Shown here one piece after another: positions 6,340-36,000 of a stretch of 64,000 nt of DNA. Position numbers and translations under genes: made by a program. The notes under the pieces are model-generated. The model was not told the DNA's origin, did not search any database, and worked only from the letters and a program-made list of their open reading frames with translations. Numbering within the stretch: position 1 is the first letter of the stretch; the number at the start of each line of letters is the position of its first letter. Origin of the DNA: Polytrichum commune (Eukaryota; Streptophyta; Polytrichopsida; Polytrichales; Polytrichaceae). The stretch covers positions 2,666,001 through 2,730,000 of the forward strand of contig OX485804.1 in assembly GCA_950295325.1 (NCBI GenBank), read 5' to 3'.

Positions 6340-7460
6340 GTCCCAAGTCATTGAAATCCATGCATTTGAATTAATGTCCTCAGTCATTGCCACAGGGTCC
6401 CCGCACTGTCCACCCAACATCTTGTTGTCAACAACAAGCCATTTAGAATTATTGGGTGTCAACATGAGGTTTTGGTTGCCAATTGCCCATAAAAGACCAC
6501 AACCATATATCTATGGGTGACAACCATAATGATTTATTTATGCATTTTCACATCATGAGTTGCAATGAACAAGTCGCAACAAATGGTTATAATGGACAAG
6601 TTTTCTTCTAGTGATAGCTTAGTCCAAGAGAGGAAGCCCCTTGAAAACCTCAGTCCAAGTATAGCGCAAACACCAATTTTGAACCCTTTGCACAACACAA
6701 GGACTCAAAGTTGGGAAAGGGTTACTGAACGCATTCACCTCTTCTCCACTAATCAAGCTACATCGAATAGTATGCCATTTGCGTGGGTTGAAAAATAGTA
6801 TTACTAGTCACATCAAGTGGGCCATTCTAATTCGGAATGTTTATTTTGAGCATGGATCCCCATTCATGAATGGGGATAATAATATACTATTTTGAATAAT
6901 ATTTGAAACTATTTATAATTTACTTTACTTTCTATTATTGTTCTTAGCAAACTAAATTACAAATAGATGAATGTTGGTCACATCCATGGTGATGTTTGGT
7001 GCAGTCAAATTAGAGGACTAGCAATTTGTGACACCAACGATGGGTTTGTCATCTTTTAGATTCAACCCCTAACTTTATAGTCCAAATCCACATCCACTCA
7101 AGGACCCTTCATTGCATAGAGAGGTTCGATTGTCCCAATGTGAGGGTCAAGGGACTGACCATTTTGTGAGCTTCCTATCCAATTAGGGTTAATGGGGGAG
7201 GAAAAGATTTTAAGCTTTGAGCCTTTACAAGAGCATCCACAACCATGGAGACCTAAGGTATGTGTGGTGTTAAGTGGTTAGTTTTTTTATAGTGGAACTA
7301 CCTATACTACTCCAAATTGCATAGCCGATTACTTCTATGGCTTAGTGAATCGGCTAGGAGAAGTGAGGAAAATTCTGATTTGAATTCGGATCCCGATTCA
7401 TAAAATTTTGCAATTGTTTGAAGTGTAGATTGTGTCATTCTTAAAATGGCAACCTAGACT
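6340..7460. other. Intergenic sequence, left edge of duplicated block
   Basis: No gene recognised. From about 7000 to 7240 the sequence matches 24225-24420 (shared GTCAAGGGAC, GACCATTTTG and flanking blocks). This marks the leftmost detectable part of the decayed tandem copy of the 24-33 kb region. Confidence 0.5.
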
Positions 7461-7464
7461 AGTC

Positions 7465-8010
7465 CAGAGTGAGTCGAAACCAAGCTGAAGGCCACTTCAC
7501 ACACGAGACTGAGAGCCTATGACCATTTCACTTCGAGCACTCTCATTGGTGGAAAAGGTGGAGCCGGTCCAAGTTCGCTTCACACTATGCTTGAGGGACC
7601 AACGGAGTATGTGAATGCAAGATGCATGTAAAGTCTACATGGAGTCCTACATGGCATCGATTGGATCGTGTTTCATGGTCACTTGGACTATTTTCAAAAA
7701 TCACCTTTTGGAAGTAGGCCTAACACGAAACTGGGGGACCATGGCATTCCGAATGCTCATAACCGTTGATTTCTTCTGTTTTATCATGTGTGAGGACCCG
7801 CATGAATAGAAATTCGTTGAAGTAGCATTTGGTTGAGGGCCCGGTCACATTTGACTTCACACTACACTTGGGGTAGGTGACCACACTACGTGATTTTGGA
7901 AGTGGATTTGGGACGGCCTTTCAACACTTTCTTTTGGGCTCTCACAATATCATGGTCACGGCTTTTGGCTCGTGTGTGAAGTGGCCCTCAATGAGGTCCA
8001 CCATGCTTTT
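7465..8010. mobile_element. Possible inverted-terminal-repeat element
   Basis: GGCCACTTCACACACGAG at 7486-7503 is repeated in reverse complement near 7968-7986, with partial similarity extending some 20-30 bp inward (GACCAT blocks). Inside, a CCGGTC...TTCACACTA block occurs twice in direct orientation (about 7565 and 7845). No target duplication or coding capacity was identified. It could be a MITE-like element or nested repeats. Confidence 0.4.
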
Positions 8011-8089
8011 GACATTGGATATGGTTAGTATGCAATATGCACAGACGTTATTTTGTCCAATTGCAGTTATCTGAACCCTTCGGAATGCA

Positions 8090-8480
8090 GGCCTTATAAA
8101 TGTAAATAGGAAATTATCCAACTTTATCTAAACTTTGTCTGGCAACACAACATTATCATTTTGCAAGCTAGGACTGCAAACTTTTTGTATAGTTTTATTC
8201 CATAAACTGGAATTACCGTGAATTTTTGAAGCCAAAAGTTGACCCGGACATATTACCAATTGTTTAGAGTTTATCGCAACCGCTTGTTTAAATTGCTCAT
8301 TCCTCCTCACATTAGCGCTCTAAACCATGACACATGTCATGGCACTATTGATTCCGGCCTTATCAAAATTGAGTCCCAACCTGATCAAAATTACCTTACC
8401 CTACAAATTGACGATGAGGTCATGGTCGGGAATAGGCGCCTCTACTATACAATTAGGTGTACAGTTTGGATTTTGCATGG
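8090..8480 (+). repeat. Single-arm copy of the 5.4-kb foldback repeat
   Basis: Shares with 5440-5790 the blocks CCAAAAGTTG, ATATTACCAAT, CGCTCATTCCTCCTCAC, ACATGTCATGGCACTATTG and GGAATAGGCGCCTC, in the same orientation. The right arm is absent. Confidence 0.7.
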
Positions 8481-9021
8481 ACGTTTGTGGATTCGGTGAT
8501 CGTGCCCATCAAAATCGTGAGTGAGACTACAAAGCAGTTTGATGTGTTTGCATCTTCTCTTTTCAAACGTGATTCTTTACACATGGCTACTTATCCTACT
8601 GACCGTTAATTATAACCAAGACCCACCACTTAAAACCTACATTAAAAATGATAATTTAGTGTCACCAATTCTAATTGTCTTGCTCAATACTAATTACAAA
8701 CCAAGGTTTAGTGTCACCAACACTAAATGTTGACCCAACATTATTGTCATTTCTTATAATTTTTTGGGGGGATTATAGATTTACAATGTTGCTATTACTA
8801 TCACTTCCCAAGTGATTTTTCATTCAAGTTTCAATCATCCATGACAGTATTTCATTGCAAGTCGATGAGAAGAGAAGGTATGGTTTTGACCAATGGATGA
8901 ACTTGTCCATCATCCATGGCAATATTTGCTCACTCTTTCATAAGAGGCGTCATCCAAAAAGTTACCATAGTGACATAAAACACCATACGACACAAAATAT
9001 CATATGCAGTGTAGTTATAGG

Positions 9022-9209
9022 GCACGTAACATTATTAAGTAGGGATGCATTCATTCATGTACGCCTTGAGAATATAACCATGGGGTGCCCCAACCTACTG
9101 CAAGGAGATTGAAGATGAAATTTGAATTCGCACTAGGCTGGGGCATCCCATGGATATATTCTTATGGCCCACTTGAACGAACATACATTGCTTAATAATG
9201 TTATGCACC
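9022..9209. repeat. Long imperfect hairpin
   Basis: Arms 9022-9098 and 9132-9209 pair through CATTATTAAG, CCATGGGGTGCCCCAACC and partner blocks, with a loop of about 33 nt. Pairing is imperfect but covers most of both arms. It could be a miniature foldback element or a small-RNA precursor; nothing in the sequence decides between them. Confidence 0.65.
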
Positions 9210-9289
9210 AAATGAAGAAAATTGTCAAATAACACCCACATTCCTTAATATGGTACTCGGTTAGCTCCATGGAAGTTTGCGCTAGTAGT

Positions 9290-9480
9290 GTGGGAAGATT
9301 CAAAATGAAGTGTTGGAGGTGCACTCTATTTGGGATACGTGTGGGATAAGGTAGGTGAGCTTTCCATGGTCAATGTTGATTAGGTAGTATATATGCCATT
9401 TCACCTTCTTAAAGTGAAGGTCAAAATGGCATCATGGTTACACTCTTTTCTAAAATGTTTATATTGCATCTTTGTCTTTG
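9290..9480. repeat. Decayed copy of 24480-24660
   Basis: Blocks such as GATTCAAAAT, GTCAATGTTGATTAG, GTGAAGGTCA and CATGGTTAC occur in the same order at 24480-24660. This anchors the left copy of the large duplication downstream of the monooxygenase locus. Confidence 0.65.
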
Positions 9481-10029
9481 AGTTGGCCACTCTAATTGCT
9501 TAAACCCTCGAGGTGGGGGGTTAGTGCAGTTTACAAATGACGTGCAACATAATATAGGGAGGATTAAATACATTTGAAATAAAGTTTGTAAAAGAATTTT
9601 AGACATGTCCACTAAAAGTAGACAATCCCAACACAAGTAAAGTAGACAGGTTTGAAAATGTGGGCCATTACTTTTTAGTAGATTTGATATAGGGGTTTAG
9701 GATCCTAGGGTTTAAGGTCTAATGTGTAAACACATGGGAGTCATTGTTCTCGTTCTAGGATTGTATTATGTGTTTAAATAATGTTGTTGTGTTTTGCAAT
9801 ATGATCCTCAAGCACAGGTTTTCTACAATGGCTTGAATGGAACCATGCTTGAAATAATATGTATGGACAAGGCTTTTGTTTGTATGCAATGGAAGATGAA
9901 CATGGATTACTTCTCATTAATGAAAAGGAATATAGACTATAATAATTTGCATTGGCATAAGAAATATACATAATAGTAGGGTGCAAACAAATAGGTTAGT
10001 TAAGAGAATTAAGTGTGAGCCCATTAATC

Positions 10030-10797
10030 TCGGGGGGGGGGGGGGGGGGGGGGGTAGCACGGGGGGATCACACCCCCTTACATTTCATAACCACGTGCGA
10101 TAAAAGTTTGCTACCCTATATTACATGCCATAGATAATTTTTAAAATTATGATATTTTTTCTACATACACATAACCATTGATAATATCTTTTGTATATTT
10201 TTTTGAAATTTTTAGTCATCTTCATTTTTTGTAGTAATTTGTTTAGTTCAATGTTGCGTCATTCTAGTTAGAAACGGTATGTTTTATAAAAAAAAACAAA
10301 TCATCAAATTTGGTTACCAATTTTTACTATGTAATAGATACTATGTATATCTACTCATGAAAAAAAAATCATAAACTTTTGAACCATTTTGGTGATGCTT
10401 TATGTGAAAAGTAGATTTTGTTTTATCGCACGTGGTGTTCAACTTGACAATGAAGTGCACCCCCCGTGGGGGGTAGTCATTGGTTGGAGTAGCAATATAC
10501 GTGCGAACAAATGATCGGGTATTTTAAAAACATGGGGGCAAGAAAATATAAATGGACTTAAGAGTAATATAGGGTATCAAAAATGGCACTGGGCATCTTT
10601 AAAGTACTATAGGGTATGGAATAATAGGTAATTTGGAATTATAAGTAATGCAAGCCATTTTTCTATTAACCCAAAGTAGAAATTTACATAATAATAGCAT
10701 GTGAAAAAAAAATTGAAAGTAATACCCCCCCATAAAATAGTGGTTGTTCGCACCTATATCCTTAACTTTTTAACACACTGCCCCCCCCCCCCCCGAG
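10030..10797. mobile_element. G/C-capped insertion element
   Basis: The element opens with a run of about 23 G (10032-10054) and closes with 14 C (10781-10794). It is flanked by the near-identical CCATTAATC (10021-10029 and 10798-10806), which looks like a target duplication. The paralogous site near 25690 lacks the insert. Internally, CCACGTGCGATAAAA (about 10091) recurs inverted (about 10422), bounded by GGGGGGATCAC and CACCCCCCGTGGGGGG. This suggests a roughly 0.4-kb sub-element with its own inverted ends. No protein is encoded. Confidence 0.6.
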
Positions 10798-11006
10798 CCA
10801 TTAATCCTATCATGTTCAAGGGTGTTGGAGGGTAAGATGTATAACTTCCTTTAAGAAGGTGGCCTATTGGTTTTGTTTGTTTTTTACAAATATATATATA
10901 ATATTCAAGAAATTTAAAATAAAATATGTATTGGCATAAATTTGAACATGTTCGCCCTATTGTGTTAGATCCCCTTCATCTCAATTTTCAAAACACCCCC
11001 TTTTGA

Positions 11007-11516
11007 CCTTTAAGGTATGAGGAATGCCTGAGGTCATTTTACATCTTGAATATGGAGTGAGGGTCTTAGAGCACATGCTTTGTATCAAAAAAACCGGTCG
11101 AGCCATGGAGTGGTGAGTCAGTTATCGGACATAACCCTCTCTTCCAACCTAAATCAAGACCCTTACATTGTGGAGATCTACAGTTCTCTTAAAGAGTGTG
11201 TGTTGGAGAGGGTTATGACACTTAACCACCTTCATTCTTTCCAATAATCTTGCACCATGCGGTAATGAAAGTGACATGAGAGGGTTATGAATTGGTTAGG
11301 CAAGAATGGACAGAGGAAGCACTTTGCTCAAGGCGGGGTTGGGCTTCGTTTTCAACTTTATAAAATGGTAATAGCCATTTGGCTTGAGGGTAGGCAACCT
11401 TGTACAAATAGGCAACCACATGGGCTTTCATGTATCTAGCTTCTAGAGTACGTTGTGCGCTAGCACCATTCCAATTTTATCTTCAAGCCGGAGAGCCTCT
11501 ACAAGTGCCACAACAC
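11007..11516 (-). pseudogene. Relic of monooxygenase exon 7 (decayed twin)
   Basis: Aligns with the last exon of the intact monooxygenase at 26084-26377. The minus-strand reading still starts with VVALVEALRLED, against VVALAEALRHED in the intact gene, and ends with ALSKVLPLSILA against ALSKVIPPSILA. In-frame stops, a damaged acceptor and an insert of about 185 bp (11083-11265) destroy the frame. Sequence on either side (10797-11050 and 11860-12150) also matches 25685-26110 and 26385-26680, so this is a segmental copy, not a retrocopy. Confidence 0.85.
11083..11265. mobile_element. Small foldback insertion in relic exon 7
   Basis: Present in the decayed twin and absent from the intact exon. 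Its ends are inverted (GGACATAACCCTCTC near 11138 against GAGAGGGTTATGACAC near 11210), giving a MITE-like foldback of about 0.18 kb. Exact ends and target duplication were not resolved. Confidence 0.5.
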
Positions 11517-11859
11517 TTTGTACAACCAAAATTATATCATTGAGTAGTCATGATTATTCTCTTTTGCTATTTAACAACATAAGTAGCATTCTTCAGTTGG
11601 GTTTGGTGGGGCCAACACCTAGCCACTTAGATGCTTGCACAAACCAAAAAAACTCGAATATTGGCCAATTTTGAGACCAAATTTGAATACGAAGGGGTTT
11701 ATAATTCAATTTAAACATCACAAAATAATGTCTAGGAAACATATAACAAATTTGGGAATAGTGACTAGTGATTAGACTTGTGTCAAGGCCCAACTAGGCT
11801 TATGCTATGAACATACTAAGGCCATTCTTGAATGTTATGAAGTGGTATGCAAGTGCCAC

Positions 11860-12150
11860 AACACCTTGTACAAACAAAATTATGCCATTGAGTAGTCATG
11901 TTATGAAGTTCCAATTTCGTCATCTCATGACCTAACGTAGGCATACCCAAGATCAACACATAACCTAAAAGCAACACTATGATGTACCAACATCCAGTCT
12001 ACATTTGAAGCCCCCTAACATACAATTGTGGCATATAGTGTTGTTTTTAGGTTCAATATTGTGTTTGATTATATGTACCTTATTGCAAGGACATCTTGGG
12101 CTTTTCAGTGCATGCATTACTATCTCATGGAGTAAAAAGAGAGACATTTT
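11860..12150. repeat. Duplicated intron sequence matching 26385-26680
   Basis: Shared blocks in order: ATTATGCCATT, ACACATAACCTAAAA, CAACACTATGATGTA, TACAATTGT, ATTGCAAGGACATCTTGG, GCATGCATTA. In the intact copy this is intron 6 of the monooxygenase. Confidence 0.85.
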
Positions 12151-12186
12151 GTTGTTGTTGTATGTTTGTTTCCTTACACACCAAGC

Positions 12187-12187
12187 C

Positions 12188-12219
<32 letters not shown>
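12187..12219. repeat. (TTA)n microsatellite
   Basis: About ten TTA units, lying just beyond the duplicated intron sequence and absent from the paralogous position. Confidence 0.9.
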
Positions 12220-12249
12220 AATTTTTGTTTTTGAAAAGTATTAGGTTTG

Positions 12250-14950
12250 GCTACATGTTGAGTTTAGAAGCAATGAAGGTGTTGAGCTTGTGATTTTTTG
12301 TGAAGTTTAGGGTGACTACATTTAGATGAATTAAAGGGAGTATTTGGCAATTGCACATAACCTATGTGTTAATTTGGGTGGTGACATTTAATTGTAAATG
12401 GAAGAAATCTAAGGTTACATGTATACTTTCATAAGGTGAACAATGGCCCCACATCTTAAATAGTAAGCAAACAAGTGGCCCCGTGTCTATATTTGCACTA
12501 TAGATGTAGCCACACACATCACAAACTAAAGGGGAAGTTGGCTATATATTGGAACTGAACAAACCCATTGAAATTGATAGCACAAAATAAATTGCATCGG
12601 CCCCTTAATCCTCTAGAAGTTTTGGAATCCAAAGTTCAACTAAGGTAGAGGGTGCTTAAACCAACACTTTAAGCTATTGCACATACATATGGCTATGTGG
12701 TTGATATATAAAATATATATTCATATTAGCCTTTGGGCTAAACATAGGTATCAAGAAAGAAAAAATATTTTTAGTCTCAATTGATCATTCGATGAATATT
12801 CAAAGTCAAAACTACTAGCTTCCTTAAACCAATATATAGGACCTGTGTATGGCAACCTCACATATGATGAGGACCCCACCTTCATTGCCTAGAACCAACA
12901 CAACATAGTTGGGTACTAGACCCAAACTACATCAAAGCCCAAGTAGTAATGGTATGCAAAGCCACACGGCTACCTCCATGATCCCTCCCGGTTCGCTTGC
13001 AAAACCATCACCTTGCATCCCGGGAACCGACCCCCTTGCATCCCGGGAAAAGACCCTTTTGTGCTTTGTGGGCCTACCTTCTTGGCGTTGTGAATAGAAT
13101 GACTAGAATAGGCATTGACAAGCCACCCTAATCCCACCTTGAACCAACCCGAGATAGAGTGGAGCCCGTTACATACCCTACTTGAAGGTCATGGAGGCCG
13201 CTATGAGGTGGCACCACTAATGGCACCTAAAACCGTCACCCCGTGGCTAGACACTCCTACACCGCCGGGTACCGTTCAAGGTTGTAGAGTGTTGGCAATT
13301 GGGAGGCGTTTATAGGTGTTGGTTTTGGATGGGGTGTTGGTTTTAGCACCCTCTACCTTAGTTTGCAAATGTATGAGAAGATCAACATGCACATATCATA
13401 CATTTCAAGCCCTTAGCAATATCTTAGGCTGCCAAACCTCTAAAACATCAATGTGCACATTGCACCAACTTGCACACATACAAAATGATCAATATTGAAA
13501 CATCATACACTCGAAATATCTAGTGCAGTTCTACACCCCAAAAGATTGGACCATCCCACTTAAACAAGAGAATATACCAAAATGAACATCATTTCTTAAT
13601 AAGAATACTCATATAATCATACATACAAATACAAATAAGCACAAAAGGAGGTTGGCCTTTGCATGAACAAAATTTCATCAAAGGGTCCAAAGTCTGACGC
13701 AGCTAGTGGGTATTAATCTCTCCTACTATTCAATTTCAACTATCAATTCCATACCATCGGAATTCCACTCCTCCAATTATGAATAAAAAACCTCATCATA
13801 CGTAGGTGTATCCTTTATCAAAACACCTTCACTTCATATGGTAAACAACAATCATCAACATTCCACTCCAGGTATTAACATACAATTACACATAAGAGTC
13901 ATCCTTATTCTCAATTTTAGAAATTCATTACTTCAAGAATCCAAATCACTCAATTCATAACATTACTCAGTTGATGAGGGGGTTCACTTGAGGATAATGG
14001 GCTTGGGTGAGGCCCACCACCCATCCCGGTGTCTATGGCGGGTTTCTCAACAAATCACTTTTTGTGTCATGGGCTATCTTGAATTTTTGCTAGAACACCC
14101 AACAACAGTCATGGACTTGGTCACATTTGAATGACTAGGCTCCTAACGACTAGACACCTAAGGATTAATTATGCCTAAACTAATATGTATTGGAACAATC
14201 TATGCATCATAGAAATCGTCGGCTCCAAGTTGTGGTTGGGAAGCAATGGTCTCACATGAGTGGAGGGTAGCAAGGTTGGCTTTCATTGGGATTTTGGCTT
14301 CCTGAAACTTTAAAATCAATTTTCTTTACTTTGGAGGAAGTGCAACTGGGCCCCATCTAGGTGTGCACCCTAGCACCTAAAAATAACCTAGTTGTATAGT
14401 CACCGGGCTAGGCTATGACCCGGGACCTACTAATCATGGCTAAACATGTTTATATTTCCTTTTGGTATGGACAGTTGGCAGCCAAATATGCTTGTATTTG
14501 CAATGCATGTCCGAGGGTCCCACATAACAATTGATAACTATCTGAGGCCCAAACCACACGGGAGGAACTCCAATGAGTTGGATGAATAGCATTGGTTCAA
14601 ATGAGCAAGTGGTTGCCACATGAGGGGAAGTATGGGGAGTGGCAACAATGACTTTTTAGCTTCGGATTTTGCTTTGGATCTTGCTTCGGGATCTACTTGG
14701 CAATAAAGTAGAGTAACATGGCACAATAAATGTAGTTCGCAACTACCGGGCACTAGTGCCCGGAAGTCCCACAATATAAGGAGAAAAATGAGGAAAAGGA
14801 GACTTTTCTTGGGCAAGGTGCCACGTTGGAGGAAGTTGTGAAACTTCCGGTGCCTCTCGTGTGGGAAGGGCCTGAGTAATGTTATGTACTTCCCAGTCTA
14901 TTGCCTTCTCGGACCTATGTCTATCTACCTGATCTCAATCACTGAGTATT
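12250..14950. other. Repeat-rich stretch of the decayed twin
   Basis: No gene recognised, and the expected relic of monooxygenase exon 6 is not visible. It contains a local duplication (CCTTGCATCCCGGGAA at about 13012 and 13034) and a perfect 18-bp palindrome, CCGGGCACTAGTGCCCGG, at 14746-14763. Short open frames here have no recognisable product. Confidence 0.4.
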
Positions 14951-14959
14951 GGTGATACT

Positions 14960-15240
14960 TTTATAATCCATAGTGGTATTGCATCCGCGAGTTTAATGTG
15001 TAATACTAGTACATTATAATCATGTAATTTGAGTCGCTGCCCCAGGACGGCATTGTACACAATCCAAAGACTCATCTCTCAAAGATGCCTGTCATAAAAG
15101 TGGGGTGTTGATCTGCGGCACTCTCGACATGAATAACTAAAAAAAGAAATTGTCACTGGTGTGTAATCAGTCAGAGATAGAAAGGTCACTGCAACCGCCC
15201 TGAATGCATGGGCCTGAGAAGAAAGGCTCATCTGACATGG
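14960..15240. repeat. Duplicated intron sequence matching 28340-28905
   Basis: Blocks ATAATCATGTA, GCATTGTACACA, AGTGGGG/AGTGGAC, TAATCAGTC and GAGAAGAAAGG occur in the same order at 28340-28500 and 28810-28905. In the intact copy exon 5 follows shortly afterwards; here it is missing and a dispersed repeat takes its place. Confidence 0.75.
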
Positions 15241-15242
15241 AT

Positions 15243-15485
15243 GACTCTTAAATGGTTGCTTTTTCCAACTAGACCACTTCTCCTAGGATATGAAACACGC
15301 TATTAGTACGAAATGGTTAACAAATCCAAATCGAGGTTGTAGCTGCTTTCTTTATAATTTTGGAGCTCATATGAATATCTAATTCATTACCAAAAGTGAA
15401 GATTCTCACGCTCATTAAATGGTTAATATACAATTGCCCCCAATTCTGTTGACTATGGAACCTAGAATGGTTCTCATATTTTGAT
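15243..15485 (-). repeat. Dispersed repeat family, copy
   Basis: Shares CTTAAATGGTT, CCTAGGATATGAAACA, AAATCCAAAT and GGAGCTCAT with copies at 24030-24200, 18585-18720, 38280-38660, 41830-42170, 52140-52420 and part of 27180-27350. It sits inside the decayed twin where intact exon 5 would be expected. Confidence 0.7.
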
Positions 15486-15744
15486 TCACAAGATGTGCAT
15501 ATGACAGCAATTTTATGTCACGAAATCAACACACTTGCATTTCAATGTCAATCTCAGTGAGACCCAAGTAGCTTAGATCCCATGAGAAAAGATGTGGAAA
15601 CCGACATCGCGGAAGCTTCCACAATCCAAAGATGTTTGACATAGAGATGCACAAGAAGGTGGTGTATGTTACCAAAAACATGACGAAAAATAATTAACAT
15701 GCCTACATTTGAATGTCAAACTGTGTGAAGTTCTAATGGATTGG

Positions 15745-15966
15745 AACTCATGTGAAACTGACTCTCCACTTACCCAGGGCAAAGACAAGATGAACACCTT
15801 CAGGAACTGGCAGAGGAGCACACCTCGACTGGTGACTGAGATGTCAAGGAGTTCCACAGGTAACATGGCAGGTAACTTTTCGATGAGCACTGAAAGGATC
15901 AGGAACTGCATGTTTGTCTTTTCAGCTTCAGCCATGTGGATTGATCACGAGCAGCACCCTCTCCCA
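15745..15966 (-). pseudogene. Relic of monooxygenase exon 4 (decayed twin)
   Basis: Matches intact exon 4 (29746-29947). The minus strand retains EDSVGEGAARDQSTWLKL, against EDSVSEGAARDQSTWLKL in the intact exon. A frameshift and deletion follow, so the rest is read in another frame. The GAG|GTGTGC donor is still present. Flanking intron also aligns (15490-15790 with 29390-29720; 16020-16370 with 30100-30690). Confidence 0.85.
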
Positions 15967-16309
15967 CTGAATCTTCTAATTTCGTCACCCTGGTGTATAC
16001 ACGCAGCGCAGTGAATTTATAATCAGAAACCGTAAAATAAAGAATCAAGAGAGTTAATGGATCCAGAGCTTTTCGAGGTTACATCACTCAATACAAAGTA
16101 ATATCAAACTAGAAATCTCAATAGAAAACAAGTCACACATGATGAGGTTGTAGCCAAATGGTGGCAAACCATTTCACCAGTTGGAGCTATTCACAACAAT
16201 CTGCATAGAGAAAGTCAACTAGCTAAGACATCCCCATTCACATTCATCATCAGTTCTCGACAGTGGCTTCTTGTCTTGAGTTTCTGCTATATCTCTAGTG
16301 TTCAGGAGG

Positions 16310-16375
16310 TATCACCTGAAAGTGTGCACAGCTTCTTCGGAGAGTCCAGGCGGTCCACCAGAAGAGGCAGTTCTG
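16310..16375 (-). pseudogene. Fragment of monooxygenase exon 3 end
   Basis: The block CACCTGAAAGTGTGCACAGC is close to CACCTAAAAGCGTGCACAGC at 30616, which is the donor end of intact exon 3. Similarity fades within about 60 bp, so the dinucleotide-binding DG-motif part of the exon is lost. Confidence 0.7.
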
Positions 16376-18350
16376 CATCATACATCTGAAAGTTCCATGG
16401 ATTCAAGTGAGTTCATCCTCTGAAACTCTCGAGCAGGCTTGCAAGTTTGACCTTTCTGGGCTACTTTGCTTTCTCTTCAAAAATCGCTGCTTGTGTGTCC
16501 TGTTTCTTTTTGCCCCTTTCTACATCTTGTATGAATGTGTAAGTTGAGAGCACTCATGTATACTTTTCATTTGCAAATGTTGCCCTTGGATCATTTAAAA
16601 GTTAAAATTCCACAAGTACAAGTGCTCCACATAAGTCACTTTGTAAAAAAATCTTGAATTGTATTGAACAGAGAAGATGCTGAAGTTTTGAATGATCTGC
16701 CAATTGTTTTCATGAATGTCCGGTTTTAAGTTCATTCAAAGAGAATTTAAGGGCGTTTTTCTACCAAGACCATGTCTAACAGAATCACTGTAAAACGATT
16801 GTCTCAATTATCTGCTTTCAAAGTTTCTGGGGCCAACGCCTCATGCTCGTCGCACCCATAAAATTTATACATAATAATCATAAATATTTTTTGGCCACTA
16901 ACTAGAGAGAGAGAGAGAATCCTGTAAAGTCCTCGGTGACTCGACTTCTGAGGGTCTCAAAGGGATGAACAATGAAGTAATTAGTGAGCAATGAAGGTTT
17001 TGAAAACAGTCGGGCTTTGTGGGCAGGATGAGCATCCGGCTTTGCTCTCAGTAATTTTAGAGTGATCGTTGGAATCACTTTTAGATAATGCAATGTGGCC
17101 ATGAATTTTTCAATGGTATCGCAGTTTAGTGGATGTGAGACCACACTATTAATTAAATAGATTGTACTTACACTTAAGAGATTTAACGTGTCATGGTCTG
17201 CTGCAAATTTTATTAGGCATACTGGAAAGAAACAGCGATTTCTAGTAAATTGCAAAAACTTTATCTATCATGGCAATGTAGGATCCAAGTATACTTGGTG
17301 ACACGACATCCACAGTATCATTAGTTGAAATGAGTGTTACAAGTAGCTGGGGGCCAAAATCCACACTATTTGTAAAATCTACCCTAAATAATGAATATGT
17401 GTGTCTTTCAAACAGTTCAGTAATTGCACATTTTTTGCTTCTTCTAATTTAGTTTTCTTGAAAGGTGAGTCCCAGATTCATTCTAGCATCCAACTTTAAA
17501 TTGGGAGAAAAATCAGATACATTAATCAATCCCGGGAATGTTGCATCTCTGGCTTCATTTTGGTGTTAGCTATGTATGATGTGCGAAAATAATCACCAGG
17601 AAATCTGAAGTAAGGGGGTGAAATAGAATCTTAAAATAAAACAGAAAGAAAATTTGTTGTTTGGGTTAGGTCGTCTAAGAGAATTTCCTTGTTTATAGCA
17701 AAGTCCGGGCACCATCCTGGCCTATATAGAAGGTCAAAGGCCGTTACTTGTGGCTCTTGCATTCCTAGCGACTTCTTTTGCCCTAGAGTTTTCTGATTGT
17801 CTGTTCAGTTTTTACTTAACATCGATACCTTATACATTGACTTTGTCTCTCCAGAGTAGGTTGCATGTGATGGAGATATCAAGTCGAGGATGCATGCGAC
17901 GTTTTTTTCTGTCATCAATATTGAACCATCAAACCTGAATGAGTTCCACTGTGAACATGTGGTCCTACTGGGAATCCTAAAAGTTCCTTATATATCGGGA
18001 TTCATATTTTAGAGTCCAAGTGGCTTGGTGTGCAAGATGCAGAAGCTTGGATTGGTAGTGTGAAAGTGAAAAAAATCCCTTTTCGTGTCCCAGTAAGTGG
18101 ACTTTGGGGTTGAAATTACAAGCTGGCTCACCTGGGGCCTGCTAACTGGGTCGGAAATGATTTTTCAGGGTTTTATGTTCATAATAGGGTTTGCTGAGAA
18201 CATCCCCACTCCATAAGGATGAAGTTGTGGTATGCCCGATCTCTAGTTTCTCTCCTATTACAAATTAAGCTTAGGTGTGCTGTCCCCGGCCACAAGCCTG
18301 GGACACCACACCTAGTTTTGCGATTGGAGGAGGTTGAGACACATTCAGGT

Positions 18351-18536: not shown

Positions 18537-18584
18537 AGACACATTCAGGTAGATATGTGTTAGTCACTTTTCTCAGTGCACCCA

Positions 18585-23500: not shown

Positions 23501-23608
23501 TGATATAGTGCAATCACTGAACATTAGTCATCTGTCACACGAAAATGTACATCCATTGTCGAACATTATTCAGCCGTGCATCTGAGTTCCGTGGACCAGG
23601 AATCGCAG

Positions 23609-24003: not shown

Positions 24004-24029
24004 AATGGCACTTAAGAGGTAGATATATC

Positions 24030-24200
24030 TTAAATGGTTACTGTTTCTGACTACACACTTATCCTAGGATATGAAACATGCAATTAGTAAGAGTTGGTTG
24101 TTGAATCCAAATTGAGACTGTAGCCACAATCCTAATAATTCTTGGAGCTCGTAAGAATATCTTATTCATATTGATCAAAGTGACCAAAATAATCATGGTG
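24030..24200 (-). repeat. Dispersed repeat family, copy
   Basis: Reverse complement of 41830-42170 in block order (CTTAAATGGTTAC, CCTAGGATATGAAACATG, AATCCAAATTGAG, GGAGCTCGT). It separates the decayed twin from the intact monooxygenase region. Confidence 0.75.
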
Positions 24201-24224
24201 CCAGTGTTTGTTCTATGCAGTCAA

Positions 24225-26083
24225 ACTAGCGAGTCTGCACTTTGTCACATTCACACAATAGGGTCCATCACCTTCAAATTCAACCTCTAACCCATCCTCC
24301 AATAAAGACTCCATTTCATGCTGTGGTTGGACTGTCCAAATGGCATGGTCAAGGGACCGACCATTTTGCAAGCTTCGTATTCAAGGGGAGAGGGGGGACA
24401 AGTACATCTGCACCCTTGGAGACCAAATTTGGTGCTCAATTTGCACCATGAAGGTTTCCGCTACGGTGTACGTGGATTCAAGTTTGAAGATTCAAAATAA
24501 AGTGTAGTCCGAGGCACAAGCTCTAGAGTCTAATTTGGATTCATGTGGGAGAAGGTAGGCAAGTTTTCCGTAGTCAATGTTGATTAGTACATGCACTTTT
24601 ATCTACAGTGAAGGTCACAATGACATTCATGTCACATGGTTACGCCCTTTCCTAGATTGTTTGCTTTGAGCTCAACCATTTCTAAACTAGCTACTTGGAC
24701 CTTTTGCAGAAGCCATCTTGTTGGTGATCTCCACAAATGATAGCCATCGTTTGTGGATACGAACGATCTGCATAAAAACAAACCAACAAAATATTGTCTC
24801 CTTTAGCATCACATTTCAAAATCCAATTGTTCGTCCAACCTTCTTCATGCCTAGTTGACAACATGGTTACAATATTTGACAAAGGTTAAGGATGAAGCAT
24901 TGGGATATTAAAACAAAGATCGATTAACCTTAAAGGTCCAAGAGGTGCATTCTGGACTTGAGGATGTTGTATGGAGGTGTTTTAGATGACTCCTTGCTAT
25001 TTAAAGCTGAAAATGTCGAAAATAGTCCCATCCAAAGTTTATCCATTTATCAATTGCATTCCTCCAACTAGAGCTAACATGTATGAAGTACAATCTCGGA
25101 TTTGGGCCTATACAAATGAGCAAAATTCAAATACATATTGCATACATCTTATTGTTGTCAAATATGGCCAAGTTTTCACTTCCTATTGGTAGCAGGTTTT
25201 GCTAAGTATAATATCAATATCATTGAATAGATTAAAGTTGATTGTTACCCATACATGTTTCAAGCTTGTAGAAACTATCATGTCAACCATAGAAAGATTA
25301 TCAATGCCTTTAAGGTTCTTCGAAATCAACCAACCACTCTGGAGACAAGAAAAACTAAAATTTGTTGTTGACATGACTTCATCTTTACAATTCTAAAATG
25401 AATTATCTAGTCATTTCAACCTTCATGTTTACACAGTATGATTGTATTTCTTTATTGATCTTTCAAACTATGTTGTACATAAGTTAGTTTTGAAGCTTGG
25501 GACACAATTTCATTAAAAAAATGTCTTGTTGTGCATTTTCATAAACATTTGTGATAAAAAACATTTTGCATGAATTTCTAGCATGTCAAGATGTTAAAAT
25601 TAGGTTTCATCCATTTGATATCCATCCTAAAGTGATTTGTAACAACTAGTCCTTAAATGTAAGAAAAAATAAACATCATTGTTATCACCAACATGAACCT
25701 CTTAATCCCATCATGTTTAAAGATTTCCCCTTGTTACAAGGTAAGGCATTGTGCCTTCCTTTCAAAAGGTGGGCTCTTGAGGGTTTCCTTTTTTATGTAA
25801 GCAACTTATAATCATTGAAAGTATTTCACTTAACAATTTTTGGCATAGTGTGCCTTCGCTCTTTGTCAGAAGTAAGTGCTCCCATAATCCAAAAAGCAAT
25901 CCTGATAGAGAAAGTTTTTAGCCTACATCTGAAACACTTAGTGACCAACATCTACATCTTCGGGAATCAGTCAGAGTGTTTCGCATATGTTTCACTAAAA
26001 TGTGAAAGAGAGTGCACAATACTCTCTCTTATAATGTTATGGCCCTTAAGTCATCTAAATTTTAAAAAGAACACCCTTGACGT
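24225..26083. other. 3' flank of the intact monooxygenase locus
   Basis: No gene recognised. 24225-24660 and 25685-26083 align with decayed sequence at 7000-7240, 9290-9480 and 10797-11050, so the duplicated block extends well beyond the gene itself. The interval at about 25690 is the empty site for the G/C-capped insertion at 10030-10797. Confidence 0.55.
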
Positions 26084-29000
26084 TTAAGGGTTGATGTTTA
26101 GAAGGGGGCCTCGTACCTCTGAATATGCAGTGAGGGTCTCAGAGCACAGGCTCTGAATTGGTGGGGCGAGAATAGACGGAGGAATCACTTTGCTCAAGGC
26201 AGGTTGGGCTATATTTCCAAGGTAAAAGAATGGCAACACCCATTTGGCTTGAGGGAAGGCAAACTCAGACAAATACGCAGCTGCATGGTCTTCCTGTGTT
26301 TGGCTTCCAGAGTACTTTTCTAACGCTATGTCTAGTTCATCTTCATGCCGGAGTGCCTCTGCAAGTGCCACAACATCCTGTAGAAACATATTATGCCATT
26401 AAATAGCCATGTCCTAGGCTTTTGCTACAACTTGAAACTTAGGCTACTGCAATTGTTCATCATCTCCTAACCTAAGGTAGGCATACTCAAAACAAACACA
26501 TAACCTAAAACCAACACTATGATGTAACAACACCTGTCATAAGTTTGAAGTCCCTGAATGTACAATTGTAGTAGATAGTGTTGATTTTAGGTACAACATT
26601 GCTTAAATTGAATATTGCAAGGACATCTTGGATTTCAGGGCATGCATTATTATGTCACGGAGTAGAAAGAAAGACTATAACCTTCTGGATGTTTGTTTTC
26701 CTACACACCTTTGCACTGAAATACTCAAAACACAATCAAGACATAATAACCTATGCATTTGAACAATTGAGCTTGGGATTTTGGTTCATGACACCTACCA
26801 TGGGGGTGCTTAAAAAACCTGCCCCTCCCATGTTTATCATTATTCACTCCAACTGGGTCCCCACTAGAATAAATCACGGTCTTTGTAAATTGACCTCGAT
26901 TTATTGGTCAATTTGGCTTAAAATTGAAACCATGCCCTATACAATGCTTATGTGCATTTTCACTCTCCCCCCATGGTAGGTGTCACGAAACTTTTCCTCT
27001 AAGTATACAAGGGTGTTCACGGAGACTTGACCTGTTTGCATGGCTCAATTCCATAGAAATCTTCCACCTCTAAGTAGATTAGGTAAGTGGCCCTATTATG
27101 GGGCATTCCAACTCCACACATTTTGGCCATTGGATTAGATCGGAATCGTCCCATCCATTAGACATTGTGAATCACAAAGATTGACATTTCAAGTGTCACA
27201 ATCGGAGTTGAGATGCAAACGTTTTAAGAGGTGAAAATGGCGATCCTCTTTCCCCTTGAACAATCACATAGACCCTCCCAATTGTGTTACCTATCAAACC
27301 TAGAATGGTGTCTATACTTTTAGCACATAGTTCAATCACTGTTCGAAATGTCTTCTTTTTAGTGTCCCGTCACTAACTTCCAAAGGGTGGTGTACATAAT
27401 GTAATTATCCTATACTACATGTATGAATCTTCTGTAACAATTTGCTTCCTAGTATTACAATGTGACATATAAAATAAACAAGCATAGAACAATGATGTAA
27501 TTAGTACAACATTAATTCAATGATTATGGATAGCCCTTTCTGGTGTGATAACAAAAAGGATAGAAATTTGTTGAGGATCTATACTCAAATCAGTCTACTA
27601 TGTCTTCTCTTACTACTCTTCGGCGAAAAATCTCCAGTGAGTGACCTAAAGTTTTCAAATTAGAATATTCGATTACAGATTCCACTACATTTGATGAACG
27701 AATTCGTCAAATTGCTTCACTACAGTTTTAGAAAGTAAATGAAATCTCAAGATATTATAAGGCCTACATATAGATCAAGTTTTGATTGTATGCAAAATTT
27801 GAGTAGAATAGGCTCCACTTTGATCTTGAGAGCCATCTTGGTGACTTTAAAAATATGAAAAAATTACATTTGTAGGAAGGAGTGCAAGACCTGCAGAGAG
27901 GAATTGCAACCCTGGCCAAGTGCATTGGACATGGCATGAGCCGCATCGCCCAGCAATACAGCCTGCCCATTTGCGTCATGGAATCTGCTACAGAACACCT
28001 GTCCATAGAACCAACTTTCAGAGTCCAGAGCATTATAGCATGTTACTATACACATAATGAGCACATAATTTGCAAGACGTTAGAGGAGAAGTTAATGATA
28101 GGTTGTAAACTTAGAGGCAAATGAATACATTTTCATACATTATGCAGAACTTGAACTATATATTCCTATTATACTATCAATCTGAGTAAACAGTCTAGCC
28201 TCTAGATGAGGACCCTGTGGTTATATTGTTATATATCATAAAATTTCAATTGATTATTTGACAACCTGCTTTTCCATATTTGCAGTAATTTATATACTCA
28301 AGAATTTTTTTGGGTCTTCTCTATACATCTATACTGATAGTTTCGAGTTCATGATGGTATTGAATCTATAATAAGGTGTAGTACAACATGATAATCATGT
28401 ATTTTAATCAAATGAGTTGACGTCCCCAGGTGGCATTGTACACATTCCAATGACTCCTCAGACCCAAGTGCAAAAGGTTTAAAACTCGCTCACCACTGTC
28501 TAAGATGAAAGTGGACAATCTGTATAGTAGAATGCCTATCGTGTCTTACTCTTGCCTCAGCCTCAGTGCCCTTACACACAGGAAAGCCCGACTCAAGAGG
28601 CTTTCTACTACATAACACAATCATGGTTTTCCTCCCTGTGCAACCCGTTTTCCTGCTTGGTGCATTCCAACAGTGGAATTAAACTGCAGGCTGGACGAGT
28701 GCATTCCACGCAATGGAATGCACTGCTACGTATGGGGGTGCATTTATGGTGTATAAAGGGGCTGATGATGACAAAGGGCCAAAAACAACAATGTGTTATG
28801 CATTCACCAGATGGTCACTGGTACCTAATCAGTCTGAGATTGAATAGAAAGGCCACCCAATCACCTTGTATGCGTGGGCATGAGAAGAAAGGTGTGGGTT
28901 AGAGGCTGAGCAGGACCTTCATTGAGGAAGTGGGACGCTGGTTGATAAACGCTTCAGCAGCTTCAATGGGGACTTTTAGAGGGGGCATGTACTTCTCCAT

Positions 29001-32000
29001 ATACGCTTTGAGCTACAGCACGCCAGGATTGGTATCAACACATTAGCATATCTGTCACTGGAAAAGACAGCACCTGTCGGTTTCCTCTGAAGGATACAAA
29101 AACTTACCAGTGCTATATTATGGCTCTAATCACTGTGCCATTCTTGCAGAGAAGTCATGCAGGAAACCTTGAAAATCTTTATGTTCTTCTTAGAGATTCA
29201 CAAGAAAATGATATGTGTATCTATATATATATCAAAACAATACTATGTAACACAATACTATGTAGCTGCATTTGAATGTCAATCTCGATAAGATTCAAAT
29301 GTCTCAGAACAACATAAAAAAATGTTCAAACTGACAACCAGGAAGCTGTCAAACCCCGAATTACAATTGTCTTCATAGAGATTCACAAGAAGGTGATATA
29401 TATATGTTACAGCAATTTTATATCCCCAAATTAATGGACCTGCATTTCAATGTTGATCTCAGTAAGACCCAAAAAACTTGGATCCCATGAGAAAAGATGT
29501 GCAAACTGACATCACGGACTCGAGCTTCGAAAATCCAAAGATGTTCATAGAGATTCACAAAGAGGTGGTGATATATATATTACAACAATTTTATGTAACA
29601 CAATGAACATACCTGCATTTATATGTCAATGTTCATGAAATTCAAAGGGCTCGGTACCCATGTGAACGGAATGTTGTGACTGACACCCCAATAACCCAAG
29701 GGAAAGACTAGGTGAACACCTTCAGGAACTAGAAGAGGTGCACACCTCAGCTGGTGACTTGATGTCAAGGAGCTCCGCAGGTGACGTGGCAGGTGACCAT
29801 TCTATGAGCACTGACATTCCATTCCCAGGGGTTGGAAAGCACGAGAAGCGCAAGCTTGTCTTTTCAGTTGTACCCGAGAAAGGAAGCTTCAGCCATGTCG
29901 ATTGATCACGAGCAGCACCCTCACTCACTGAATCCTCTTTGGTCACTCTGCAACTCATGCCAATCAAATCAATGTCAGAAGAATCATGTGATCTCACAAG
30001 TAGGGTTCTTATTCTACGAGTGTTGAACAATTGCTAAAGATACATCTGGTTCTTCGAAATGTATCCTTGTGATTATTGCTGTTCAAACAACACTTACAGA
30101 TAAAGGTACCCAGATAAAATAAGAATCAAGAGGAGATAGTCAATCCAAAGCTTTTAGAATTACACTCAAAACAGAGCAATTACAAGGAAGTGATCAGAAA
30201 CTATAAAGAAAAATGAAAAGAAATTGCTCATGCGGTAGTAACCAAATAGTGGCAAGCCATTTGACCAGTTGGGGCCATCCACATTAATCTATCTGGATGG
30301 AAGAAGCCACCTTCCACGACATCCCTACTGACTTCAGGATCAGTTCATGTTGTCTTGAGTTTCTGCCAGATCTCCAGAGGCAACAGGAAGGTTCAAACAA
30401 ATTGTAGTATGGCATGTATACTAAGACCACATGGTTTCAACATAAGGAAAACCAGGAGAGAGACACTACAAAACACCTGAAGTAGCAGGTAAAACAGAAG
30501 CCAAAAGTTTAATTTATTCGAGAGAACACCCTGATTTTGCTAAGAGGGCTTTGACAACCTCTCCTTAGGAGGACTCCAAAGCCTTGGTAAATTAGTACAT
30601 GAACTCATCACCACTCACCTAAAAGCGTGCACAGCTGCTTCGCAGAGTTCGGGGGGTCGTGGGACATAGAGAACCTTGAAGGTATACGGCATGTTGGTTT
30701 GTTGGTAATCGAAGCCTCGTTGACGTATGAATTCGTTGCGTACAATAGACCTTGCACCATCGGCTGCTACCAAAAGATTGTAGGGCACCGGTTTGTCCCA
30801 TTTGTCTTCAAATGAAACTGTGTGGCTCTTGAAGTCAGCTCCTGCACACCTCGCATTGAAGTGGACCTGGACAGAAGCATCATACGGCTCCGAAAGTGAG
30901 ATGGGGATTTTTTTTTATTAGAGCACTAGAAAAGGAGGAAAAGACAATTTCCTATTGGTCGTCGGTTCACTTAACCATGTGATTCACCACAGGGAGGAAG
31001 CACCATCTACAGGAGAACTCGAACCGACATGTGGATAGTTGCCCATAACGAGTAGGCAAAATGGCTCCCAAGTAGGTTAGTCACCGCGACACTTAGATGC
31101 TTAAGAGATGGAAGGTGGTTCTTCGCACACGTATAAGAGAACAACCTTCTTCAAGAGGACTTCTTTTTTGCACTGAGTGGAAAACATAAGTCCTCTTGAA
31201 GAAGGTTGCTCTCTTACATACGTGATTGCGCATTTCCGCCTTTGAGTTCTTATGCATTGAAGTGTTGTGGTGGCTAACCTCCTTGGGAATCATTTTCCCT
31301 ATCCACATGAAGCATTCCTTTGGCCACACAGCTCAAGTGCAAACTTGTGAAGTTTGCAATTGAACCATGTGGCCAAGGAAATTTCACTTGTGTAATGCCA
31401 TGGATCCCTTGTTTGTTTCCTATTGCTAAATCTTTTGAATATCGGAGAGGGGCAATAAATCAAGTTTCTTCGACATCAACTTGCACCCAATTCTCAGCTC
31501 GGCCTGATCCCGGGATTGAAAAACATACAGACAGGTGGACAAGATGATGATGATGCTTTACGGTGAAGTAGGAAACCCACCTGTAACTGCTTCTTGGAGT
31601 GGCGGGTCTCGAGCTCTTGAACGAGTGTGGCAGCCAGTGCTCTCTGATTGATGAGCAGAGACGGCTTACCTGGGTTCCTCTTCAAGGCGATGGCTCGCTT
31701 GCCCGCGTGCAGTACGAATTGCGAGGTAGGCATGCCACATTTCTCGACTTTTTCCCATAAACCCTCCACCCTTTTGATAGCGTCCTGCCCACGCGCGCTC
31801 AATCCCACGCAGTATTGCCGCTCCTTGTATCTACCACACGCAGAGACACATCAAATCATCAGCATTCCTGTTCCTGGAAATGAGTTGCGAAGACGACTCG
31901 CAACTCCGTTGCTCGTCTGCAGTTGATAACCCGGAAACAGATGATCTTGGCAAAGAAGGGGGTAAGGGGCAAAAGGAGGGGAATTCCTCGACTACGCCTT

Positions 32001-33064
32001 GTATCAATGGAAGTTGATCAAGTAAGAGTAGTTGTAGTTATGATAATCAATGCACCTGCTTATCCTTCAAAATACAACCAAAATAAACTACAACCAACCA
32101 CCGCCGTTGTTGTGCACATAGTTGTGTGTAATGCAGCTGTGAACCCCAGAACAGAGGATTTTGGTAAAGAGGGGAGAAAAGAGGGGAATTCTTCAAGATC
32201 TCCTTGTATCAATGGTAGTTGATGAAATAAGAGTAGGTCTAGTTGCGGTTATCACATATGCACACCTTCTTATCCCTCCTTGCCCCTTAAAAAACAGAGC
32301 CAAAACAAACTACAACCATCCACCACTGACGGTGGTTGCGCTTGTGTGTAATTTGGTTGTAATTGCGTGTAAAATGCTTGCGAATTTCAAAACAGAGGAT
32401 CTTGGCAAAGAGGGGAAAATAGATGTGAACTCCTCAACTTCGCCTTGTATCGATGGTTGTTGATAAAGGATGACCAGTTGGGATTGTGGTTGTCAACATT
32501 GCGTGACCTTCTCATCCCTCGTTATTCCTCAAAAATAGTGCCACAGAATGTGGACTACACCCATCACCCACCATGGGTTGTAGTTGTATGTGATGCAATG
32601 CAATTGCTAACCCCAAACAGAGGATCTTGGCAAGGGAAAAATAGGTGTATCTTTCAACTACGCCTTGTATCAATCCTAATTCTTGGAGGGAGAGGCATTG
32701 TGGTTGCAATTCTCATCAATGCACTTTCTTATCCTTCCTTTTCCCTCCGAAACACAGCCAAAGAAAGTAAACTTCAACCATCACTCAGTTGCGAACCGCA
32801 CAATACAGAATTAAGCCAAAGCGAGAGGGGGGGAGAAGAATGAATTTGGTATTTCTGGAACTGAAGGCGGGTATGTATGTGTTCCTGCATCCTCTCTTCA
32901 ACTTACGGGGCCAGAGGGATGCGCGGGTCGTTGCGAGCTTCGAAGATGCGGATAGGCAGAAGCTGAGGCTTGGGGGGTTGGGATTGCAACAGCAAGTGTG
33001 CCAGCAACAGCCCAGCAGGCCCGGCTCCCACAATCACCGTCCCAGCTGCACCCGCCTCCGCCAT
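26084..33064 (-). CDS. FAD-dependent aromatic monooxygenase (kynurenine 3-monooxygenase/PHBH type)
   Basis: Seven exons: 33064-32907, 31830-31581, 30866-30619, 29947-29746, 29012-28917, 27998-27891 and 26377-26084, joining in phase to 451 codons plus TAA. Family hallmarks appear in order: the Rossmann GAGPAG at residues 13-18 ending in an acidic residue (IRIFEAR); GLSARGQDAI near 62; the DG motif LLVAADGARSIVR at 167-179; and the GD motif LLGDAAHAM at 333-341 followed by GQGCNSSLQD. Such enzymes use NAD(P)H and O2 to hydroxylate an aromatic or related ring; the substrate cannot be read from sequence. No signal peptide or clear transmembrane anchor was seen. Donors after exons 5 and 6 are weak (AAG|GTCCTG, CAG|GTCTTG). 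The length fits the family. A broken tandem twin lies at 11.0-23.5 kb. Family confident, substrate unknown. Confidence 0.88.
27180..27350 (-). repeat. Dispersed repeat family, partial copy in intron 6
   Basis: CCTAGAATGGTGTCTA and the adjacent AGCACATAGTTCAATC block match 52300-52350 closely. The longer family consensus is only partly present. Confidence 0.5.
29180..29700. repeat. Tandem repeat in monooxygenase intron 4
   Basis: About three units of 170-190 bp. Each contains AGAGATTCACAAG, a GTGATAT(AT)n stretch, CAATTTTATGT-like and GCATTTxAATGTCAAT-like blocks (unit starts near 29192, 29377 and 29548). The decayed twin retains two units at 15490-15790. Confidence 0.8.
31124..31230. ncRNA. 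Hairpin with 21-bp perfect stem in intron 2
   Basis: 31142-31162 and 31188-31208 are perfect reverse complements, separated by a 25-nt loop. Pairing continues outward with small bulges to about 31124 and 31230 (CACGTAT, AAGAGA, CGCA blocks). Size, loop and near-perfect arm resemble a plant microRNA or young MITE-derived small-RNA precursor. Expression cannot be judged from sequence; a transposon foldback is the alternative. Confidence 0.4.
31942..32800. repeat. Tandem array of about 210-240-bp units in monooxygenase intron 1
   Basis: Four units and a partial one begin near 31942, 32154, 32394 and 32622 with GA(G/T)GATCTTGGCAAAGAGG-like sequence. Each continues through CCTTGTATCAATGG, a TTGTGGTT-rich part, CTTATCC and AAACTACAACCA. 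Units differ by substitutions and indels. In the decayed twin the array is absent, together with exon 1. Confidence 0.88.
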
Positions 33065-36000
33065 TGCTTCCTTCTCCTCAAAAACAACTCTTGTTAATAT
33101 AAGTCACTGCAATCTCAATTTTCCAAAAACTCAAATCCGCCAAATTCCCCAAGTTTCTATCCGCTACTTCACCACCACTAATTGACCAACCTGTACTTTC
33201 TCAAACCACAGATTCTTCACCACCCAAATCTCTCTTACTCTAAGAACACAGTATTCTTCCCAAACGCCAAACCGGCTTGCTCATATGCTCCATAATGTCC
33301 AAAAAAAAGGTCCCGCCACATGTGCGGCCGCCTACTCCTGCTTCAATCTCCACCAGAGTTTTTCTTCAAACGCTAATGACCTCCAACTGCCGACTGCCCT
33401 CCGAACCCAACACCTGTAGATGGAAACCATACTTCAGTGGACCCAAGGTTTTCTCAAGAATCCACGAAAGTTATGGCAATGATAAAGTGCAGTGGATGAG
33501 GTGGACAAGCATTTCCATTACCTACGTCTGCATACATGCCGCTGTTGATCATGAGCCATGGCGTCACCGTTGCTGGCATCGAACAACCTACACAGTAGAA
33601 TCTAGGATTGCAACTAACTGCCAACATCAGTGTCCGGGGAGATTTTTGGGCATAATCGGTCCAAATCCTAGTGTTTCCAAGTCCAACCGGTTACACGGTG
33701 TGATCTTTCGGTTTGTCTTCAATAGTTTGAGGTTCTCCCCGTTCATTGGCCAACATTCGGTGGCTTCAGGTAGTCAAAAGCTGGAGCAGTGACAGGAAAT
33801 CTTCATCATTCTTCTTATTATTTCTCTACAAGGAATGGTTGCACGAGTTCCGAATAGCTTGCGAACGCAATCGGCGCTTAGGCCTCCCTTTACACTAATA
33901 AATTACTTTTATAAAGCTTAGAGGGGTTGAGAGCTCAAAGATGGAGAGCTTCAAGAGAGGAGCCTTCTCGTTGGCGGAAAGGAGCCTCTTACTCATGCAT
34001 GTTCACACATGTCCATTTTATACTCGAGCTTTCAACTTGGGTGATTCGGTCTTTTGAGTAGGCTTATAACACTTACGATATTTATAGGACAATGTTCATA
34101 GTGGGGTGCAATGTGATATTCACGGGTACCGTCCGAAAGTGGAAACCCAAGGATAATGTTCAAAAATCTCACATCGCACAACACGATGGATATTCTTCTG
34201 CATTAACCATTCTGGATATTTTTACAGACATTTGTGCATTATATGTGCCACAATAAACGTGATGTGTTATGACATGCTATAATGCATTGTCCATCCCTAC
34301 CTTTCTTTGTTGATAACATTACGCTCTATAGTGATCAGAAATCAGCAAGGGAATCTATCCAAAATAATGTATGTGTGCCTAGAAATAAAACCAGCTTTAA
34401 AGTAACACCTACATTTCATCTTTGAAGTGTCAACAAATGAGTGTGGTGGCACATTGAGTAAGCCAAAGATAATAACCACTAATCATAAGTGGCATCAAGT
34501 ACAAAAATAACACCACTTTGATCATGTATAGTGGCAGTGTAAGATGGATGTAAGAAATGGTTTAAAAAGAGCGTCAAATTTGGCCAAACATAGTGGCCAA
34601 GATTTATTTTGGTTTTATGCATATTTGTATGTTGGTTGCATAATGCACAATGAAGAATGCAACTTGGTTTCTTTCTTTTTATACCAATTTAAAATTGACG
34701 ATAGGATGCAATTATGTTCTAAGAATTGGAGGTAGGTCATAAGGGAGGAGCTATCATGGTTGATATGTTGGTGACAACACAAGTTGCATATGTGACATGT
34801 GATGCAAAGTTGGTCTTGACCTTCCAAACCATGTTGGTTCATTGGTTTTTTTGACTCTTTTTTCAAGTTTTTGTTTTAAAGGGAAAAAATCACATTGCTA
34901 TTTTTGGTGCAATTTGGCCTCATAAAGCCAAAAAAACATTAATAATGGTTCATTTGGGATCTACCTGCTTAACGACGCAATGTAAAAGGGGTCTCACAAA
35001 AGGTGAACAATGCCCTCATTTAATTGAAGAGTCTCACATCACTAGAAGGAATCATGTCCAAATCAACCCTACAGGGTAGCAAGAATTTCACTGTAAAAGG
35101 GCACTGGTATGCGGTGGTAGTAGTCCGTCGGTGCAATCTTGATGGCCTAGTTAAAAGCCAGGTGATGCACCCAATAATGCTCTTTTCAACCCCTTGGGGC
35201 TTCTGTGGGTGATGATCCCCATCCTAAGTGTTTACAATTTTTGTGCGTTGAGGAACCATCTCTGCAGTGACTCCAATTGCCCCATTTGGCTTGGGTGACC
35301 TAATTCATGGCTCCAGCTTTGGTGTCAAGAGAAGGGTCGCACTTTCTGGGGAAAGTCCTAGTCGTGGCTCTTTTCGCCTTGGATCGTGGAATCAATGAAT
35401 GTCTCTCATCAATAGCATCTCACTGTCAAAACAACAATCTCCTCCTATATGCATAAGAGAACAACTTTACACATAACAAGTCATCGGTGTGCGCAGAATA
35501 AGAAATGCACTTTTCAGTTCATGGATAATATTAGTGCATTGTAATTAATTGTGATTAGTCAATAGGATGCCACATTAGCAATATTATCCACCTAGGCAAT
35601 TACCCTTACAAGATGCCACGTCATCACGGTGTTCACGAGGTAACTAACTAACGAAGAGTTCTTCTGGAACCTTCCAACCTCTGCCTCCGAGGTCTCATGC
35701 ACCAAGAGCACAAAGAGTAGTAGCTGTAGCAAGTAAATGTTATCAGTTGGTTGTACACAATAGAGTTATAGAGTTCTCAAGCAGATAGACAGTTTTCTTG
35801 TATGTTTACTTGGACGATGCAATAAAGAACTATTGTTCCACCATTACTCTGTGTACACTTGAGATAGATTGTGCTTGATCAAACCTATTGAGTCTACAGA
35901 TAACACTTGCAACTTGGCTTCCTTGAAGAGGCTCACAATTTGGCACTACTGCAAGTAAGACTGGGAGAATTCGCCCAAACATGGATGGACTTTTCTTTGC

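Follow-up and report, generated by a model that had tools for sequence, protein, structure and literature searches.

Two stretches of related DNA lie side by side within a 64,000-nucleotide region of the Polytrichum commune genome (contig OX485804.1; the entire region is referred to here as the window), raising the question of whether a flavin monooxygenase gene was duplicated at this locus and, if so, what became of each copy. An initial annotation had proposed a tandem duplication with one intact and one ruined copy. We asked how much of that proposal holds, beginning with the right-hand copy.

The right-hand copy contains a gene whose eight exons, once joined, read as a single open frame of 467 codons and a stop, uninterrupted and in phase as had been claimed, with GT-AG at 7/7 introns. 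The original model had seven exons and overlooked exon 8, which supplies the last 26 residues of the protein together with the stop codon. The eight exons below were placed by reading frame and splice consensus.

24,687-33,064, minus strand: right-hand gene, intact, 8 exons, 467 aa, predicted kynurenine 3-monooxygenase (KMO)-like FAD monooxygenase (exon joins and FAD_binding_3 match)
33,064-32,907, minus strand: right exon 1
31,830-31,581, minus strand: right exon 2
30,866-30,619, minus strand: right exon 3
29,947-29,746, minus strand: right exon 4
29,012-28,917, minus strand: right exon 5
27,998-27,891, minus strand: right exon 6
26,377-26,117, minus strand: right exon 7
24,687-24,767, minus strand: exon 8, preceded by a TTTTTATGCAG acceptor and in phase 0 after exon 7

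With the FAD_binding_3 model the right protein scores 68 bits (cut-off 22; E 1.2e-18), and it carries the FAD-binding monooxygenase signature as GAGPAG, DGARSIVR and GDAAHAMSNALGQG, which we take to be the GxGxxG, DG and GD motifs. Sixteen sequences of solved structures match it at E ≤ 0.001. Ten are KMOs (E 2.6e-22 to 1.3e-15), class A flavin monooxygenases that are its best solved-structure relatives and have the FAD motifs in common with it; the other six are different flavin monooxygenases with E 1.8e-6 or weaker. Among NCBIfam models, 49 families match, the best 25 of the 49 far below their cut-offs (top VioC, 88.7 bits against 760). Unlike Pseudomonas KMO, the right protein has no Arg and Tyr at the positions aligned to Arg84 and Tyr98 (Pseudomonas numbering), although identity is low and the exact register is uncertain. 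Pairwise alignment to chain 5fn0 sets Gln and Leu opposite these residues, and alignment to chains 5x68 and 6lkd, whose residue numbering is presumably equivalent to that of the Pseudomonas enzyme, sets Phe and Lys there. Both residues of the Pseudomonas enzyme are described as close to the substrate carboxylate (PMC6376250). As these substrate-binding residues are not conserved, “KMO-like” is the safe name for the predicted enzyme. A moss transcript can be likened to it by description only: Physcomitrella EST cluster PPP_5746_C1 is entered in a published listing as “L-kynurenine 3-monooxygenase Fpk”, with metazoan KMO given as its best relation (PMC1079823). A scan of prokaryote genomes with a peptide pattern yielded 23 matching stretches, none confirmed as a relative.

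Self-comparison of the window revealed a collinear diagonal between the two copies. Sensitive blastn of 6,900-24,000 against 24,000-35,000 (E ≤ 0.01) returned 21 rows, 13 of which, a few overlapping, lie on one rising same-strand diagonal from 6,936/24,160 to 23,491/33,354; the eight off-diagonal rows are dispersed repeats, internal repeats of introns 4 and 1, and two inverted hits. Homologous blocks therefore do share order and orientation, as first described, and the block coordinates given earlier are correct to within about 100 bases. The two units are as follows.

6,936-23,491, unstranded: left-hand copy of the unit, degraded and enlarged by repeat insertions (collinear diagonal)
24,160-33,354, unstranded: right-hand copy of the unit (ends of the collinear diagonal)

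The left copy retains parts of introns 1, 3, 4, 5, 6 and 7 and of both flanks. Because introns and flanks are present in both copies, in the same order and orientation, the duplication took place at the DNA level, and judged from its sequence the locus is an old tandem duplication of a KMO-like gene.

Collinear blocks could also arise without gene duplication if dispersed repeats had inserted twice in the region. Several shared blocks are indeed not gene-specific: within the 407.8 Mb searched (64 contigs), copies occur elsewhere of the intron 3 block at 30,115-30,377, the start of the intron 7 block, and parts of intron 6 (about 26,473-26,605), intron 5 (about 28,560-28,805) and the 3' flank (about 24,236-24,404). 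The blocks are thus homologous and ordered as claimed, but not all are private to the gene. Others are confined to the two copies. We state uniqueness only from searches in which every candidate was scored, while other genome DNA searches scored the best 40 candidates. Coding exons are found in two copies only, plus three weak matches elsewhere at E ≥ 0.013 (15/15 candidates scored), and a search of the genome with the protein gave 13 matches at E ≤ 1, comprising the eight right exons, two left remnants and three weak matches elsewhere (E 0.013 to 0.76). Two copies only were likewise found for the exon 4/intron 4 block and intron 5 at 28,811-28,892 (3/3 candidates scored), the 3' flank at 24,486-24,662 (11/11), and the intron 1/exon 2 and 5' flank blocks (3/3). 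With the exon 7, exon 4/intron 4, intron 1/exon 2 and 5' flank blocks present at these two places only, and in order, a pure shared-repeat explanation is hardly credible and we reject it in favor of gene duplication.

One further segment bears on the extent of the duplicated unit.

23,608-24,014, unstranded: probable 3'-terminal segment of the right unit (sole other genomic match inverted at 2,763-3,418)

This segment adjoins the right unit, and its only genomic match (2/2 candidates scored; K2P 0.21-0.25) is inverted; the pair flanks the left copy. It probably once lay within the duplicated unit, with its left-side partner later inverted. Elsewhere in the window, a Pfam scan of ten open frames, two of them from the left insert described below, gave no match for 9/10 and ankyrin repeats for one, a minus-strand frame at 826-1,281. 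Four long minus-strand open frames at 53,283-61,129 have no Pfam match and are possibly exons of one large gene. In the genome as a whole, SAM_LFY matches occur at four places, compared with 0/14 control genomes; this family is not known outside plants and close algae, and the matches thus indicate a plant.

Coding remnants of the left copy carry numerous lesions.

11,284-11,521 (approximate ends), minus strand: left exon 7 remnant, frameshifted (alignment)
15,830-15,990 (approximate ends), minus strand: left exon 4 remnant (alignment)
16,316-16,355, minus strand: left exon 3 remnant, last 40 bases (local alignment)

Left exon 7 is split by a ~200-bp insertion, with its last part at about 11,045-11,085; it also carries two in-register stops and four insertions that shift the frame (1, 4, 1 and 1 bases). 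Compared with its right counterpart, left exon 4 lacks stretches of 19 and 21 bases and has 3- and 1-base insertions. In local alignment the exon 3 remnant scores 52, where the highest of 100 shuffles reaches 41. Of exon 2, about 20 bases are left; this edge alone scores 30 against a best shuffle of 39, and is accepted as part of a longer block. Exons 1, 5, 6 and 8 gave no score above 100 shuffles in the left copy's expected intervals, so that the losses listed in the initial annotation (exons 1, 5, 6 and most of 2 and 3), which stand, have to be extended by exon 8. The coding remnants contain eight indel events, not counting the ~200-bp exon 7 insertion, and 6/8 are frameshifting. We assign these six to the left copy because the right frame is unbroken; the 3- and 21-base coding indels could have originated in either copy. 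Frameshifts, stops and missing exons bear out the description of this copy as ruined. The window also contains a short internal duplication (11,502-11,557 and 11,850-11,904, 91% identical) at the left intron 6/exon 7 border.

Intron and flank homology to a neighboring paralogue, together with a disabled frame, mark the left copy as a probable unprocessed pseudogene. Disappearance of several exons and of large intron parts might instead recall a processed (retro) pseudogene, but the partial retention of six introns and both flanks leaves that origin with practically no likelihood, and we reject it on the presence of intron sequence. Like an unprocessed pseudogene beside a functional tandem paralogue, the left copy displays the familiar head-to-tail layout, shared introns and flanks, lesions, exon loss and repeats. 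Tandem and proximal pseudogenes are reported to be in excess in a survey of five flowering plants (PMC7935947).

The left copy had also been said to have gained insertions, and it does carry about 6.8 kb of added DNA, most of it repeated and including one repeat nested within another.

16,400-22,807, unstranded: mostly repeated DNA replacing left exon 2 and most of exon 3 (genomic matches)

Among the matches listed for this insert (the best 40 of 2,906 and the best 40 of 214 candidates) are several multi-copy families. The part at about 16,400-18,350 has at least one other genomic copy at 95%, and a 1.27-kb repeat is nested at about 20,838-22,103. A ~190-bp repeat at 18,352-18,540 has at least 24 other copies at 92-95% identity, which suggests recent amplification. 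Right intron 1 contains diverged repeats of its own at 31,918-32,787, offset by about 214, 455 and 681 bases and matching one another at 66-68%; pieces of this intron resemble dispersed repeats elsewhere, among the matches listed. Self-hits had raised suspicion of a tandem array here, which we dropped as the three rows of the tandem repeat finder lie elsewhere.

Divergence between the copies gives an indication of how each has evolved. Noncoding sites differ by 25.6% (448/1,749 aligned sites), a count that takes in blocks touching dispersed repeats and excludes the 3' flank blocks as well as, on account of the suspected conversion, those of the 5' flank and of intron 1/exon 2; without the blocks at 25,573-25,847, 26,456-26,812 and 30,115-30,377, the differences are 243/914. 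The 155 clean codons give dS 0.303 and dN 0.198. The synonymous value is close to the noncoding estimate of 0.313, which fits a single duplication event. Pairwise dN/dS is 0.65 (bootstrap 0.40-1.10). Neutral simulation gave a median of 0.77, with values ≤ 0.65 in 24.7% of 1,000 runs, and 0.55-0.65 is expected for a neutral branch paired with one under constraint at omega 0.1-0.3. Differences at the three codon positions (26/157, 32/158 and 32/158) display no third-position excess. Since dN/dS is neutral-like and the codon positions are equal, it is the intactness of the frame that argues for selection on the right copy. The earlier suggestion of selection on one copy only thus draws support from the contrast between an intact right frame and left frameshifts, but not from codon statistics. 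Those same statistics would be compatible with a right copy that is decaying too and whose open frame is recent luck. This is very unlikely: taken over half the noncoding divergence, neutral evolution of the right frame predicts about 8.5 stop gains, and none is seen (P about 2e-4), while GT-AG is kept at every intron of the gene. Selection is consequently our preferred reading of the right frame.

The 5' ends of the two copies depart from this general level of divergence.

23,208-23,345, minus strand: left intron 1/exon 2 border, probable gene-conversion tract, 95.7% identical to right 31,817-31,954
23,363-23,491, minus strand: left 5' flank, abutting intron 1 across the exon 1 deletion

The tract, found at two genomic places only in the genome search, has six differences over 138 sites (K2P 0.045), against K2P values of 0.155 in the 5' flank, 0.18 in the 44-site exon 3 edge and 0.23-0.40 in other blocks. 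At 24% divergence, the binomial P is 3.5e-10, a value uncorrected for block choice. Junction alignment shows that the left copy lacks 1,223 bases, from the 5' flank into intron 1, exon 1 among them. The borders of this deletion are nearly identical between copies, with 33 identical bases upstream and, downstream, a 19-base gap followed by the tract. We also weighed a templated insertion at the break as the source of the tract, but set this account aside, given the near identity that flanks the deletion on both sides. The best reading is probably gene conversion between the copies, with the converted region later cut by the exon 1 deletion. Shared constraint on a regulatory element near both 5' ends would also keep sequences alike, and the 5' flank block is likewise less diverged; however, the tract comprises an intron end and the opening bases of exon 2 within a copy that lacks exon 1, and near identity extends to both sides of the deletion, making constraint an improbable account. 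Under conversion, the exchange would be roughly a sixth as old as the duplication (K2P 0.045 against about 0.28). On balance we favor the view that a dying copy and a working gene exchanged sequence long after they were duplicated, and that the working gene perhaps had its 5' end and first exon partly rewritten from, or into, the pseudogene. Such a short, probable later conversion tract at the 5' end is what the left copy adds to a typical unprocessed tandem pseudogene.

Taken as a whole, we consider it likely that the locus passed through tandem duplication, retention of a functional right copy under selection, decay of the left copy and later conversion. A region of roughly 9-10 kb with an eight-exon KMO-like flavin monooxygenase gene would have undergone DNA-level tandem duplication. 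The right copy would have remained functional and under selection, and the left, being redundant, would have decayed through point changes and small frameshifting indels, through loss of exons 5, 6 and 8, and through inserted repeats that replaced exon 2 and most of exon 3. Conversion, later than the duplication and before the 1.2-kb deletion that took exon 1, would have re-homogenized the 5' end, and roughly 140-190 bp of the tract may persist in the left copy.

A pseudogene next to a working paralogue is of a known kind and an ordinary outcome of gene duplication. What the locus provides is a corrected gene model of eight exons and 467 aa for a predicted KMO-like enzyme, and a clear plant example of how a gene duplicate decays, probable conversion tract included, for which no new principle is needed.
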